Origin: Halegenticoccus soli
GTDB taxonomy: Archaea > Halobacteriota > Halobacteria > Halobacteriales > Haloferacaceae
DNA: 64,000 bases
Assembly: GCF_002844195.1 (NCBI RefSeq)
Contig: NZ_PEND01000002.1
Span: 558,001-622,000, forward strand
Direction of reading: 5' to 3'
The notes under the pieces were generated by a model. It worked only from the letters and a program-made list of their open reading frames with translations. It searched no databases and was not told the origin of the DNA. Below, piece by piece: positions 579 to 7,918 of the stretch (its first letter is position 1; the number at the start of each line of letters is the position of its first letter). Both the position numbers and the translations under genes were made by a program.

Positions 579-1396
579 ATCACCGAGTTGATCAGCGTCT
601 GGGTGTACTCGTGGTGCGGGTCCTCCAGGATGCGGTCGGTCAGCCCCGACTCGATCACGCGGCCGCGCCGCATGACCAGGGTCCGGTCGGCGAGCAGGCG
701 GACGACGCCGAGGTCGTGCGAGACGACGATCGTGGCGACCTCCTCTTCGCGCTGAATCCGCCGGAACACGTCGAGCACGCGGGCCTGCACGCTCACGTCG
801 AGGCCCGTCGTCGGCTCGTCGAGGATGACGAGCGACGGGTCGTTGGCGATCGCCTTGGCGATCTGCACCCGCCGCTGCATCCCGCCGCTGTAGGTCCGCG
901 TCGGGTCGTCCATCCGCGAGACGGGGATCTCCGTCTCCTCGAACAGTTCGCGGACCCGGTCGCGGATCTCGCCGTAGTTCCGCCAGCCGGCCGCGAGCAG
1001 CTTCTCGGCGACGTTGCCGCCGCCCGAAAAGGAGAGGTTGAGGCCGTCGCGGACGCGCTGGTGGACCATGCCGATGTGCTCGTTCCGCAGCGCGAACCGC
1101 TCCTCATAGTTCGCGTCGAGGAGGTCGCCGTCGTAGCCGGCGTACTCGACGGTGCCGTCGGTGGCCGCGAGGTCGAGGGCGAGTATCTCGGCGAGGCTCG
1201 ACTTGCCGGAGCCGCTCTCGCCGACGACGCCGAGCACCTCGCCCTCGCTGACCGAGAGGTCGACCGCCGCGCAGGCCACGACGCTCCCGCAGGCGGAACA
1301 CCGGTTGTCGCCGGCCAGGTCACCTGTCCGTTCGACGCACTCCGAGCAGCCGTCGCCGTAGATCTTCGCCACGCCCCGCGCGTCGAGGACCGTCAC
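575..1396 (-). CDS. phnK: PhnK, C-P lyase ABC-type subunit
   Basis: This 273-residue ABC ATPase of the C-P lyase complex is known in bacteria to dock on the PhnGHIJ core near PhnJ. Walker A (GESGSGKSS, about 59-67), Q-loop region MVHQRVRDGLNLSFSGGGN, signature YSGGMQRR, Walker B LVILDEPTTGLD and the C-terminal SGLTDRILEDPHHEYTQ typical of PhnK are all present. Unlike E. coli PhnK it carries an insertion ahead of the Walker A strand with two CxxC pairs (Cys17/Cys20 and Cys33/Cys36), which looks like a zinc or metal knuckle. It overlaps phnL and the end of phnJ by 4 bases each. This subunit appears intact, in contrast to its neighbours. Confidence 0.95.
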   Translation of the reverse strand: MTVLDARGVAKIYGDGCSECVERTGDLAGDNRCSACGSVVACAAVDLSVSEGEVLGVVGESGSGKSSLAEILALDLAATDGTVEYAGYDGDLLDANYEERFALRNEHIGMVHQRVRDGLNLSFSGGGNVAEKLLAAGWRNYGEIRDRVRELFEETEIPVSRMDDPTRTYSGGMQRRVQIAKAIANDPSLVILDEPTTGLDVSVQARVLDVFRRIQREEEVATIVVSHDLGVVRLLADRTLVMRRGRVIESGLTDRILEDPHHEYTQTLINSVI

Positions 1397-2439
1397 CCGG
1401 CGTCACCCCCGTCCGGCGTCCCGGGGCCCCACGCGACCCCGGATCGGTCGAGGTGGTGGTCCTTCGGGAGGTCGGGGTCCCGACTCCGCTTCTCGCAGAA
1501 GCTCTCGTCGTTGCAGACGAAGCGCCGCTCGCCCCCGTCCGTCTCGATCTCCGTGAGGTAGGTGTCCTCGCTGCCGCACGCTGCGCAGCCGCGCTCGGGG
1601 AAGCGCTCGACCTGAAAGGACCGGTCCTCGAAGGCCAGCGGCTCGACGGACGTGTGCGGCGGGACCGCGTAGATGCGCGCCTCGCGCCCCGCCGCGAACA
1701 GGAACAGCGCGTCGGCGTCGTCGAGCTTCGGCACGTCTCAGCGCGGGATCGGCGAGGGATCCATCAGGTAGCGGTCGGCCACCATCACCGGGTAGCGCGC
1801 CGCGATGTCGATCTCGCCCCACTCGACGACGTTCTCGTACAGGGCGACCCACATCTTGCTGTAGTTTCTGTGCGCGTGTCGCCGCCGGTTGCGGTCGTCG
1901 CTGCCGTCGACGCGGCGGAGGGCGTCGGTGATCGGCACCTGCAACACGAGGATCTGCTCGTCCGTCAACACCTCCTCGGGGATGCGGTGGCGGGTCTGGA
2001 TCACCGTCGCCTCCGTCGCGTCGGTCGTCGTCTCGACGCCCGCCGTCGTGCGGGCCAGCCGCCGGATGTTGGCGGCGTTCACGCTCTCGTCGCTGCCCTG
2101 GTCGATCACCTTGAACGCGTCGTCGGGCCCGAGGAGCGAGAGCGACGCCTGGATGCCGCCGGTCCCCCACCCGCGGGCCAGCGGCATCTCGCGGGAGGCG
2201 AACGGCACCTGGTGGCCGGGAATCGCGATCGCCTTGAGGGTCGCGCGGCGGACCTCGCGCTTCGTGTGCTCGTCCAGGTAGGCGTAGTTGTACCCCGACA
2301 ACCCGTCGCGCTCGCAGGCGTCGAGCGCGTCGTCGACGGAGGTCGCGTCGACGGTCACGCCGCGCTCGGAGGCGGTCGACCCCGCCTCGCTCCCGGTCTC
2401 GGTCGCCTGGCTCCCGGTCCCGGATCCGGACTCAGTCAC
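1393..2439 (-). pseudogene. phnJ: PhnJ, C-P lyase catalytic subunit, interrupted by in-frame TGA
   Basis: PhnJ is the radical-SAM enzyme that breaks the carbon-phosphorus bond. The first 233 codons (2439 to 1741) match PhnJ from LSGYNYAYLDE through RYLMDPSPIPR and contain the radical glycine region AIAIPGHQVPF (Gly75, equivalent to Gly32 of E. coli). A TGA at 1740-1738 follows, at the place where E. coli has Phe in PIPKFD. The same frame then continues DVPKLDD...GREARIYAVPP and ends with the four Cys (CAAC and CNDESFC) that match the E. coli Fe-S cysteines in number and spacing. A GTG at 1734 could restart translation three bases after the stop, giving a 113-residue second piece. So the glycine and the Fe-S site lie on different pieces unless the stop is read through. 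It could be a point-mutated pseudogene, a truly split enzyme or a sequencing error. Confidence 0.9.
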
Positions 2440-3646
2440 CGGCGCTCACCTCCGCGGCCGCGGCGTCGTCACCGTCACCGCCGTCGTCGCTGTCGTCACC
2501 GTCGCCGCCGTCGACCTCACCGCCCTCGTCGTCACCGCCGCCGCCGTCACCGCTCTCGTCGCCGGCGGCCCCCGTCCCCCGTTTCCGCTCCCTGATCGAG
2601 CGGATGCGGTCCAGGATGCTGCCGAAGGTCACGTAGTGGGGGAGCTTCAGGTGCTCGACGAAGCCGAACGAGTCGATCCCGTCGATCACGTCCAGCACGA
2701 ACTCGGCGTCCTCGGCGGGCTCGTCCCCGTCCAGCTGGATCGAGGCGTCGAGCATCGTCATGCCGATCGCCTTCCGCTCGTTGCGGCCGAAGACGAGGCC
2801 GTAGCCGAAGGCGAACCGCGGGTCGTCGCGCGTTTCGTACGCCGGGACGACCCCCTCGAACTCGGTCACCTCGACGCTCGTCACCTCGACCGCCTCGCCC
2901 GTGTACGGGTGTTCGATCTCGACCGGGAGCTCGCCGATCCGCACCTCGGCGAGCGTCGGGTGGATCCGCCCGTACCCGCGGAGCGCGCTGTACCCGAGCG
3001 CGGTGATCGCGCCCGTCTCGCCGCGGGCGAGCTCCTGCAGGACGGCCGACCGCGGGGCCGGAAAGAGCACGGGCCGCCGCGTCGTGTCGTACGGTTCGTC
3101 GTCCTCCGACTCCGCGTCCGGATCCTCCCTCGGCTCCTCGACCAGGCCCTCCGCCCGGAGGACGTCGATCACGTTGCGGAGCGTCCGGGGTTCCTCGTCT
3201 TCGAGGTCCCAGTCGGCCGTCGGGTCCGTCGGCTCCCCGCCGTCCGCGAGGTCGAAATCCAGGAGGCGCTGGGTGTAGTCCTTCGTCGCACCGAGGATCT
3301 GCCCGCCCGGCACGTCCTTGAACGCCGGCGAGACGCGGCGGGTGGCGAACATCTCGTCGGGCTCCGCCGGCACGCTGTCGCCCCACCGCTCCAGCGTCGA
3401 CCGGTACGCCCGGAGCAGGAACGCCGCCTCGGCGGCGTCCCCCTGGGCCTGCTTCACCGCCAGGGCGGCCAACCGCGGCGCGTACAGGCCGCCCTCGCTC
3501 ATCGCCTGCGCGGTCAGGCGGCCGAGCTGGCCGCCGATCTGGTCGAGGTCGAGGTCCGCCGCCCCCTCCTCGACGCGGCGCTTCTCGAACAGCTCCTCGG
3601 CGCGCCGGATGACCTCCTCGCCGGCTTTGACCGCGACGTACCCCAT
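2432..3646 (-). CDS. phnI: PhnI, C-P lyase nucleosidase-like core subunit
   Basis: PhnI, with PhnG, PhnH and PhnL, couples phosphonate to the ribose of ATP, displacing adenine. The 404-residue protein begins GYVAVKAGEEVI and carries the conserved blocks LTAQAMSEGGLYAPRLAALA, AAFLLRAYRSTL, RRVSPAFKDVPGGQILGATKDYTQRLLDF and LPHYVTFGS. It is about 50 residues longer than E. coli PhnI (354) because of a C-terminal tail made almost only of Asp, Gly, Ser and Ala (from about residue 355), a halophilic low-complexity extension. It starts directly after phnH (stop at 3647, start at 3646) and overlaps phnJ by 8 bases. It appears intact. Confidence 0.94.
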   Translation of the reverse strand: MGYVAVKAGEEVIRRAEELFEKRRVEEGAADLDLDQIGGQLGRLTAQAMSEGGLYAPRLAALAVKQAQGDAAEAAFLLRAYRSTLERWGDSVPAEPDEMFATRRVSPAFKDVPGGQILGATKDYTQRLLDFDLADGGEPTDPTADWDLEDEEPRTLRNVIDVLRAEGLVEEPREDPDAESEDDEPYDTTRRPVLFPAPRSAVLQELARGETGAITALGYSALRGYGRIHPTLAEVRIGELPVEIEHPYTGEAVEVTSVEVTEFEGVVPAYETRDDPRFAFGYGLVFGRNERKAIGMTMLDASIQLDGDEPAEDAEFVLDVIDGIDSFGFVEHLKLPHYVTFGSILDRIRSIRERKRGTGAAGDESGDGGGGDDEGGEVDGGDGDDSDDGGDGDDAAAAEVSAGD

Positions 3647-4288
3647 TCAGACCACCTCCAGGGTGGCCGAGCGGGGCAGCGCGGCGACGCGGTCGGCCGC
3701 GGCCAGGACGACGTCGATCCCCCTCGGGTACCCCGACTGCGCGTCCGCGACGGCCGAAAGCTCGGTCGGCGGCAGGCCGCCGACCGAGAGCCTCCGGGTT
3801 CCGGGCACGCCCGGACCCGAGACGGTCACGCGACACCCGCCCTCGCCGTCGGGGTCGCCGGTCGCGCCGCCGTCACCCTCGGCGAGGGAGATCCGGGTGT
3901 CGCGGACGGGGTCACCCCCGCCCTCGCTCGGCACCTCGGGCGCGTTCAGGGAGGCGACGCGGTAGATCACCGTGGCACCCTCGCTCGGCTCCCTGAGCGT
4001 GCCGCGGTTCGCGTCGCGGACGCGCCCGTCCGTCGGTTCGGGGGCGTGGACGATCCGCGCCCGCTCGAACGGCGCTTCGGCGAGCCGCCCCTCGCGCGCG
4101 AGCAGCCCGCGGACCTCCTCGTCGGGCGTGTAGCACGTCACCTCGTGGTCGACGAGCGTCGCCAGCGCGGCGCGGTCGGCGGGGCCCGCGGGGACCCGGC
4201 GGACGGTTCCCGGGCGGCTCATCGCGTCGACGAGCGCGCGGAACGTCGCTCGGGCGTCGTGGACGGGGTCCATCCCGAGCGCCCTCAT
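3647..4288 (-). CDS. phnH: PhnH, C-P lyase core subunit
   Basis: PhnH is a structural core subunit of the PhnGHIJ complex. I chose the ATG at 4288 because it gives a 213-residue protein starting MRALGMDPVHDARATFRALVDAMSRPGTV, which matches the start of PhnH (HDxxxxFRxLLxAMSRPGT), and because it overlaps the phnG stop as ATGA. The C-terminal block GYPRGIDVVLAAADRVAALPRSATLEV is also typical. A Gly/Asp-rich insertion (about residues 115-140) is absent from bacterial homologues as I remember them. The gene runs straight into phnI with no gap. Confidence 0.92.
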   Translation of the reverse strand: MRALGMDPVHDARATFRALVDAMSRPGTVRRVPAGPADRAALATLVDHEVTCYTPDEEVRGLLAREGRLAEAPFERARIVHAPEPTDGRVRDANRGTLREPSEGATVIYRVASLNAPEVPSEGGGDPVRDTRISLAEGDGGATGDPDGEGGCRVTVSGPGVPGTRRLSVGGLPPTELSAVADAQSGYPRGIDVVLAAADRVAALPRSATLEVV

Positions 4289-4728
4289 CCCTCGTCCTCC
4301 ATCGCCTCGAACTCGACGGCGGTCGCGCGGCTCTCGGCCCACCGGCGGCGGCGGCGTCCGTCGCGCTCCGCGGCGGCGGCCCGGAGCTCGCCCGCGATCC
4401 GGTCGGTCAGGTCGTGGCCCGCGGCGACGGCGGCGTCGAGGATCGCCCCGGAGAGCGCCGCCCGTTCCTCCTTCCCGGGGACCATCGCGAACCCCTTCTC
4501 GCCGTCGAGTTCGACCTCGGCCGCCGTGACCACCACCTCGCCGAGGTTGAAGCGCCGCTTCTCGACGGGCTCTACGACCCGCTGCATCACGAGCCGCGGC
4601 GTCGGTTCCTGGAGGACGCGCAGGCGCGTCCCACAGTCGAGGACGCCGTCCGCCAGCCCGGCGAGCGTCTCCCCGTCGCAGGCGGCGAGCAACTCGAACC
4701 GCTCCGAGCGGTCGTACACATCGGTCAT
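4285..4728 (-). CDS. phnG: PhnG, C-P lyase core subunit
   Basis: PhnG is a small core subunit of the C-P lyase complex; the length of 147 residues is normal. The ATG at 4728 gives MTDVYDRSERFELLAACDGETLAGLADG, and the family motifs PRLVMQRVVEPVEKRRFNLGEVVVTAAEVEL and KGFAMVPGKEERAALSGAILDAA are clear. It is the first gene of the minus-strand phn operon; a possible TATA-like TTAA lies about 30 bases upstream (4755-4763). It overlaps phnH by ATGA. Confidence 0.93.
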   Translation of the reverse strand: MTDVYDRSERFELLAACDGETLAGLADGVLDCGTRLRVLQEPTPRLVMQRVVEPVEKRRFNLGEVVVTAAEVELDGEKGFAMVPGKEERAALSGAILDAAVAAGHDLTDRIAGELRAAAAERDGRRRRRWAESRATAVEFEAMEDEG

Positions 4729-5001: not shown

Positions 5002-6060
5002 ATGTCGCATCCGACGGAGAACGCGGAGACGGCTCGGGGCACCGAGACATCCGGACGGGGAACCGACACGTCCGAAACCGGCGGGGGGCGGGGGTTCGAC
5101 GCGACCGCCGCCCGCGCCGGTCGGCGGAAGTACCTCGTCGGGGCGGGAACCGCGGCGCTCGCGTCCCTGGCGGGCTGTGCCGGCGTCCTCGGCGGGGGCA
5201 CGTCGGCGGAGGAGGTCACGATCCTCCTCACGCCGGAGAACCCCTCGGACGTGAAGAACGACTACATGCCGGTGCACAACTACCTCGAGGGGGAGATCGA
5301 CGGTCTCGAAATCGAGTTCAGGGTCCCGACGGACTACTTGGCGATCCGGCCCGCGCTCGAAAGCAAACAGGCCGAGATCGGGATGGACGACATCACGCTG
5401 ATCTCCTCCCCCGACCTCATGGACGTGTTCGGCACGGCCGTCACCGGGGGGACGGCGTGGTACTTCTCGATGATGCTGACCAACCAAGGCTCGGGTATCG
5501 AAAAGCGGACCGACCTCAAGGGGAAGAAGGTCGCCTTCGCCGACCGCCTCTCGACGAGCGGTTCGATCTTCGCCTGCTACACCCTGATGGAGGCGGGCCT
5601 CGACATCGGCGACGCGCCGGACGGCGAGCCGGTGGACTTCGAGGGCGAGTGGTCGAACCACAAGTTCGCGGTCGAGATGCTCGCCAACGAGCGCGCGGAC
5701 GCCTGCTGTACGTGGGGCGGCAACGGGATGCCCCACGTCGAGGCGAGCGACGTCCCCGATCGGGTCAAGGAGAAGACGGCCTACCTCGATGACGCCGCGA
5801 CCGAGGAGCCGATCTTCGAGCCGATCTGGTGGTCGTTCCCGATCCCGAAGCAGCCGATCTACGCCCGGAAGAGCTAGGAGTCCGACGCGAAGGGGAAGAT
5901 CGAGAAGGCGCTGCACGACTGCACCGAGGAGAAGCTGGAGAGGTACAAACCGGACGACTACGACGCGACGCTGCCGTTCTCGACCCTCAAGGACACGTCG
6001 ATAGCGGACTACCAGCCCGTCATCAAGCGCCTCAACGCTCTCGACGTCGACCTCGGGTAA
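5002..6060 (+). pseudogene. phnD: PhnD, phosphonate-binding lipoprotein, interrupted by in-frame TAG
   Basis: This is the substrate-binding protein of a phosphonate ABC importer. It has a twin-arginine type signal (RRKYLVGAGTAALASLAGC, Cys about residue 54) that should be lipidated and held outside the membrane. The PhnD-type body follows: TILLTPENP-like strand, TDYLAIRPALESKQAEIGM, KGKKVAFADRLSTSG, NHKFAVEMLANERADACCTWGGN. Translation would stop at a TAG (5875-5877) after IYARKS. The same frame continues for 60 more codons, ESDAKGKIEKALHDC to NALDVDLG, ending in TAA at 6058-6060; this is exactly the C-terminal helix region expected of PhnD. So the stop is a premature amber codon or a read-through site; one base change from a TGG Trp codon would explain it. 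The truncated protein would be 291 residues. Confidence 0.9.
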
Positions 6061-6137
6061 CGGCGCGTGCCGTCCCGCTCCCACGCGGCCACGGCGGATC
6101 CGCTCACTTCGACCATGAAACCATCGACCACCCCACC

Positions 6138-6923
6138 ATGAGTACGCTTCGGGTAGAGAATCTGACGAAGACCTACGGCGACGTGACGGCGCTCCGGGAC
6201 GTCTCCTTCGAGATCGAAGACGAGTTCGTCGTCCTGCTGGGCCAGTCCGGCGCCGGGAAGTCGACGATGCTGCGGTGTATCAACGGACTGACCGAACCGA
6301 CCTCCGGCGAGATCTACCTCGACGGCGAGCCGCTTTCGGGCTCTCGACCGACCGTCGGGATGATCTTCCAGCAGCACAACCTCGTCGAGGGCGTGTCGGC
6401 GTACCTGAACGCGCTCACGGGGGCGCTGGACCGCGCGACGCTGATCGAGAGTCTCTTTCAGTGGAACGACCGGGCGGACAAGCTCCGCGCCCTCGAGGCG
6501 CTGGAGACGGTCGGTCTGCTGGACGAGGCCCACCAGCGCGTCTCGCGGATGAGCGGCGGTCAGCAGCAGCGCGTCGGCATCGCCCGGGCGCTCGTTCAGG
6601 ATCCCGATCTGCTGCTCGCCGACGAGCCCGTGGCGAGTCTCGATCCGGCGAGCGCGGAGACCGTGATGCGCTACCTGAAGAAGGCGGCGACCGTCCACGA
6701 GGCGACCGCGCTCGTGAGCCTCCACCAGGTCAACGTCGCGGCGCACTTCGGCGAGCGCTTCGTCGGGCTGCGGGACGGCCGGCTCGCCTTCGACATCGGA
6801 CGCGACGAGCTCACGCAGGAGCGCGTCGACGACCTCTACGGCGACGTCGAGACGGTGGCCCTCGCCGAGCGCCACGCCGTCGACGGATCGCCCGCGGTCG
6901 AGGACCGAAGGGTGCGGCCATGA
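6138..6923 (+). CDS. phnC: PhnC, phosphonate importer ATPase
   Basis: This 261-residue ABC ATPase should energise import through PhnE. Walker A is GQSGAGKST (about 36-44), the Q-loop is MIFQQHNLV, the signature is [15 protein letters not shown], Walker B LLLADEPVASLDP and the H-loop ALVSLHQVNVA. The motif ASLDPASAETVM and the QQHNLV Q-loop are typical of PhnC rather than of sugar importers. I used the ATG at 6138; upstream sequence in the same frame belongs to the intergenic stretch after phnD. The stop overlaps the phnE start as ATGA (6920-6923). Confidence 0.94.
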   Translation: MSTLRVENLTKTYGDVTALRDVSFEIEDEFVVLLGQSGAGKSTMLRCINGLTEPTSGEIYLDGEPLSGSRPTVGMIFQQHNLVEGVSAYLNALTGALDRATLIESLFQWNDRADKLRALEALETVGLLDEAHQRVSRMSGGQQQRVGIARALVQDPDLLLADEPVASLDPASAETVMRYLKKAATVHEATALVSLHQVNVAAHFGERFVGLRDGRLAFDIGRDELTQERVDDLYGDVETVALAERHAVDGSPAVEDRRVRP

Positions 6924-7918
6924 GTCCCCGGCCGAGGTCCGCGTCCGGCCGCATCCGCGAGTACTTCGGGCTCGCCGACCTCGGAGAGTCCGCGGTCGAG
7001 AGAAAACTCACCGAGCTGAAGCGACGCAAGACCGTGCGGCGGCTCTGGACGGCCGTCGCCGCCGTCGCGCTCGCGATCCTGCTCGATTTCAGCCTCGACC
7101 GGGCCGAGTTCTCGCTCGGTATGCTGGTGCAGTACTTCCCCGAGTTCGTTCGCGCCCTCGGCGATTACTTCCCGCCCACGACGTACTACGGGATCCCGTT
7201 CGTCGACGTACGGCAGTACTGGGCGTTCATCCTCGCGGAGGACCTGTTCCACCAGTCGGTCGTGACCGTCTCCATCGCGTTCGCCGGCACGGTGATCGGC
7301 CTCCCGGGCGCGCTGTTGCTGGGTGTTCTCGCGAGCGAGCGGGTCGTCCCGTACCCGTTCAACTTCGTCTTCCGGCTGACGATGAGCACGATCCGGTCGA
7401 TCCCCGCGCTCGTCTGGGCGCTCATCTTCATCCCGCTCGGCGGCGTCTCGCCCTTCACCGGCACGCTCGCCATCATCGTCGACACGACGGGCTACCTCGG
7501 CCGGCTGTTCACCGACGAGCTGGAGGAGATCGAGACGGGCCCGATCGAGGGCGTCCGAAGCACGGGCGCGAACAAGTCCCAGACGATCACCTTCGGCATG
7601 CTGAGCCAGGTGTTCCGGCAGTTCATCGCGTGGATCGCGTTCGTCCTGGAGCACAACGTCCGGGTCGCGATCACCCTGGGGCTCATCGGTGCCGGCGGCC
7701 TCGGCCTGGTGTTGGACACCCAGCGGCGGACGTTCAACTACACGGAGATGATGGCCTGCATCATCGTCATCGTCCTGCTGTCGGGCACCGTCGAGCTGCT
7801 CAGCCAGCGGCTCCGATCGTACCTCCGCGACGACGAGAAGGGCGAGGCCGACTCCCGAGGGTTCCTGCGGATCCTCGTCGAGACGCCTCGAAAGATCGCG
7901 GAGTCGGCTCTGAAGTAG
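6920..7918 (+). CDS. phnE: PhnE, phosphonate importer permease
   Basis: This 332-residue membrane protein is the permease partner of PhnC and PhnD. Several hydrophobic segments are visible (about 40-60, 115-135, 150-170, 180-200, 250-275, 285-305). The EAA-like coupling loop reads EEIETGPIEGVRSTGANKSQTI, which is the form seen in PhnE. The C-terminal block RVAITLGLIGAGGLGLVLD is also characteristic. It overlaps phnC by four bases and is the last gene of the plus-strand phn operon; a 124-base gap to the convergent regulator follows. Confidence 0.94.
   Translation: MSPRPRSASGRIREYFGLADLGESAVERKLTELKRRKTVRRLWTAVAAVALAILLDFSLDRAEFSLGMLVQYFPEFVRALGDYFPPTTYYGIPFVDVRQYWAFILAEDLFHQSVVTVSIAFAGTVIGLPGALLLGVLASERVVPYPFNFVFRLTMSTIRSIPALVWALIFIPLGGVSPFTGTLAIIVDTTGYLGRLFTDELEEIETGPIEGVRSTGANKSQTITFGMLSQVFRQFIAWIAFVLEHNVRVAITLGLIGAGGLGLVLDTQRRTFNYTEMMACIIVIVLLSGTVELLSQRLRSYLRDDEKGEADSRGFLRILVETPRKIAESALK

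Follow-up and report, generated by a model that had tools for sequence, protein, structure and literature searches.

Does the in-frame stop codon in the phnJ gene of Halegenticoccus soli mark a dead enzyme, a C-P lyase that works in two pieces, a site of read-through or an error in the sequence? The gene lies in a window of 64,000 nucleotides, which is the whole stretch of DNA analysed here, and belongs to a phn locus with the order phnG-H-I-J-K-L-M on the minus strand and a divergent phnD-C-E on the plus strand. The evidence comes from one draft genome, which measures 4.6 Mb in 15 contigs and is 99.5% complete. The first-pass annotation, from which the four options are taken, covered only the break in phnJ, but phnL and phnD of the same locus are broken as well, and recent inactivation of the phn (C-P lyase) locus is probably the explanation.

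The phnJ frame extends from 2439 to 1393 on the minus strand and contains a single internal stop, the TGA at 1740-1738, immediately 3' of DPSPIPR. The alignments bear out the initial description of one PhnJ frame split at this codon: the 5' part (1741-2439, 233 aa) matches residues 3-190 of E. coli PhnJ (E 1.5e-64), and the 3' part (1393-1737) matches residues 192-277 (E 4e-21), so that the stop corresponds to E. coli position 191. They likewise agree with the claim that the radical glycine, Gly75 (E. coli Gly32), and the four cluster cysteines are on opposite sides of the TGA, as the equivalents of E. coli cysteines 241, 244, 266 and 272 are all in the downstream piece, and the frame that would link them to the glycine is broken at 1738-1740. 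When the stop is read through, the protein gives a full-length match to the PF06007 family (441 bits, positions 2-273) and displays the same radical glycine and four cysteines as known PhnJ, the alpha-D-ribose 1-methylphosphonate 5-phosphate C-P lyase (PDB 4XB6, 7Z15-7Z19), from which the present gene differs by its in-frame TGA.

The first-pass annotation had taken Phe as the original residue at the stop and had proposed to compare the codon across related haloarchaea. This comparison revealed a sense codon in all 30 haloarchaeal loci, but it is TGG (Trp) in every one of them, and Phe (TTC/TTT) is the bacterial state, present in 46 of 50 bacterial loci. Because the haloarchaeal relatives carry TGG and not TTC at this site, a single G-to-A change (TGG to TGA) would suffice to explain the stop. 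PhnJ is single copy in the genome, and no internal stop was found in the 38 other haloarchaeal PhnJ matches of a class-wide sample (39 genomes with PhnJ), three of these being partial matches. The PhnJ of one further haloarchaeal genome, G355, is truncated too, but it was rejected as a parallel case because the truncation reflects an assembly gap of N.

Two genes further along the minus strand, phnL is reduced to a 99 aa remnant (279-578), recognized by comparison with Halegenticoccus tardaugens and by a profile match covering only positions 2-85 of 224. Relative to H. tardaugens, approximately 438 bp are missing in frame between GSVRYES and ADRVVEL, with the junction near 360-370, and the ends of the deletion are outside any long exact repeat. 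Walker A is retained, and the Q-loop, signature, Walker B and H-loop have been removed, which leaves the remnant short of a complete PhnL ATPase; the 29 relatives whose phnL is in reach all keep Walker A, signature, Walker B and H-loop. A second PhnL was not found in the genome, where the best other match reaches 135 bits, compared to 255 for H. tardaugens PhnL. The catalytic glutamate of ABC ATPases is part of Walker B, which falls within the deleted segment. In E. coli, growth on phosphonate needs the ATPase activity of both PhnK and PhnL, and the PhnL substitution E175Q alone abolishes it (PMC9947105). Because the PhnL ATPase needed in E. coli is lost, the C-P lyase would be expected to be dead by analogy, whether PhnJ is split, restarted or read through.

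The third lesion is found in the divergent half of the locus. Sequence comparison indicates that phnD (5002-6057, plus strand), which encodes a phosphonate-binding lipoprotein, is interrupted by an in-frame TAG at 5875-5877; in the alignment of haloarchaeal PhnD proteins, this site is Trp in every sequence that reaches it. phnD and phnC (window 5002-7918) are nearer to Natrinema/Haloterrigena (PhnD 72-74%) than to H. tardaugens (PhnD 54% identical, PhnC 69%), and the closest relative of phnG and phnH is H. tardaugens. Judging from these similarities, the two halves of the phn locus seem to have different histories.

The other genes of the locus are intact. On the minus strand these include phnG (4285-4728), phnH (3647-4288), phnI (2432-3646, single copy in the genome), phnK (575-1396) and phnM, whose 5' part occupies 1-282 by profile and comparison and which runs left beyond the window to L091:17032, while phnC (6138-6923) and phnE (6935-7918) are on the plus strand; thus PhnG, H, I, K and M, which the operon requires, are all preserved. 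Two CxxC motifs (CSEC ... CSAC) occur in an N-terminal insert of PhnK (window 1396-1260, minus strand) that, to our knowledge, is absent from E. coli PhnK. Directly after phnM, a TIM-barrel-like protein is encoded at L091:16278-17060 (minus strand); its H. tardaugens counterpart also follows phnM, and has MJ1311 and sugar epimerases among its PDB matches.

In H. tardaugens the phn cluster (NZ_SDIC01000004.1) has the same order, phnGHIJKLM with a divergent phnDCE, and its PhnJ is 90% identical, but unlike the present locus it contains no stops and its phnL is full-length (243 aa). The present locus carries more than one inactivating lesion without counterpart in relatives (the phnJ TGA, the phnL deletion and the phnD TAG), as is expected of a pseudogene locus, and the genome holds no second copies of PhnJ, PhnI or PhnL.

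How often genes are interrupted elsewhere was assessed by pairing 20-kb stretches of the two Halegenticoccus genomes; ten such pairs yielded 86 syntenic orthologues (31,667 aa), a set that may include some antisense ORFs. None of the 86 contains a real internal stop, and the candidate interruptions were traced to query ORFs that extended too far upstream or lay antisense. Within the window, a coding-potential scan detected only the phnJ and phnD stops, beside the natural phnH/phnI border, and the same scan on samples totalling 600 kb of other DNA in this genome, from which the genome-wide background is taken, detected one convincing and one ambiguous interruption. The convincing one is an unrelated pseudogene, a C-terminal fragment of an aldehyde dehydrogenase that contains a TAG in frame at L160:13281-13283 (minus strand). 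With three of ten phn genes broken versus none of 86, the hypergeometric probability is ~0.001, and it is ~0.008 when phnJ, the gene that drew attention to the locus, is left out (two of nine). The lesions cluster in the phn pathway, as decay predicts, unlike random error.

The surviving residues bear on the age of the loss. Nine phn genes together have 852 columns without variation among relatives; the genome differs at only four of them, a count no higher than in relatives with intact genes, and the phn genes of the locus contain no frameshifts; the relaxed selection on remaining codons that is expected of old pseudogenes only is not seen. In the absence of selection, about nine invariant-column changes are expected per nonsense change, and for two nonsense changes produced by a neutral or random-error process the expectation is ~18, with a probability of ~0.06-0.09 for three or fewer. 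These counts are a counterpoint to decay, which, if real, must on the evidence of the codons be either extremely young or itself favoured by selection. Since the rest of the phn genes still look fully constrained, we infer that the loss is recent.

A sequencing or assembly error, with phnJ, phnD and phnL intact in the organism, would fit the draft state of the assembly, the otherwise pristine genes and the fact that both stops are single-base changes. It is nevertheless unlikely, as a clean in-frame deletion of ~438 bp with ends outside long exact repeats is not a base-calling error, the rarity of interruptions elsewhere in the assembly argues against random sequencing error, and random base errors should also have added missense changes at invariant columns, which are scarce. 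Recoding, by which both stops would be read as Trp through a suppressor tRNA, near-cognate read-through or A-to-I editing of the mRNA, draws on the observation that both are G-to-A changes at an otherwise conserved Trp, that such editing would turn UGA and UAG alike into Trp codons, and that the surviving residues appear constrained. However, 86 other genes show no systematic Trp-to-stop changes, the phnL deletion is left unexplained, and we know of no editing of mRNA stops in archaea. No stop-reading tRNA was found either: none of the ARAGORN-assigned tRNAs has a UCA or CUA anticodon, although the tRNA search did not find tRNA-Trp and three tRNA-like loci have no assigned anticodon, and no tRNA-Sec match in the genome exceeds the cut-off, the weak matches being at loci that the general tRNA search had also picked up. 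Recoding of this kind is thus extremely improbable, and TGA as selenocysteine was rejected for want of a tRNA-Sec over the cut-off. The three tRNA-like loci (L135:438-527, L145:253-349 and L146:234-318) share a GGAAGGG/CCCUUCC acceptor stem and have odd anticodon or variable regions that allow no confident anticodon.

A functional two-piece PhnJ would require termination at the TGA, restart at the nearby GTG and assembly of the pieces. The GTG that had been pointed out just past the stop is at 1734-1732, with one codon between, and restart is conceivable by analogy, because these 3 nt are inside the working termination-reinitiation range of Haloferax volcanii, which tolerates very short distances (PMC10666635); moreover, both pieces are still fully conserved. 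Yet no Shine-Dalgarno motif is visible for the GTG from which the C-terminal piece would have to start, the class sample contains no other split PhnJ, and PhnL, required in E. coli (PMC9947105), is gone, hence there is hardly any chance of such an enzyme. Even taken together, correction of both G-to-A Trp stops at the RNA or translation level and a two-chain PhnJ, in a C-P lyase without PhnL, are very unlikely.

Among the four options offered at the outset, the two further lesions in the locus favour the dead enzyme, and the loss of PhnL makes a working split PhnJ unlikely. Under recent inactivation, a TGG-to-TGA change would end PhnJ ahead of its Fe-S cysteines, the in-frame deletion would strip the catalytic core from the ABC protein PhnL, and a TGG-to-TAG change would truncate the uptake protein PhnD. 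We infer that the organism itself carries the lesions and presumably cleaves no phosphonate; most likely the phosphonate pathway has just been lost through gene decay of an ordinary kind, and PhnJ is no new two-piece enzyme. In ordinary prokaryotic nonsense and deletion pseudogenes, too, one pathway is hit by several independent inactivating lesions while the sister species keeps intact copies, but the present locus differs from them in being very young, with hardly any missense change. The supposed split C-P lyase can therefore be struck from the list of surprises, and in its place stands a haloarchaeon that offers a clean case of phosphonate use lost very recently but retained in the sister species. 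It also calls for caution, as an organism whose genome carries most phn genes need not be able to use methylphosphonate.
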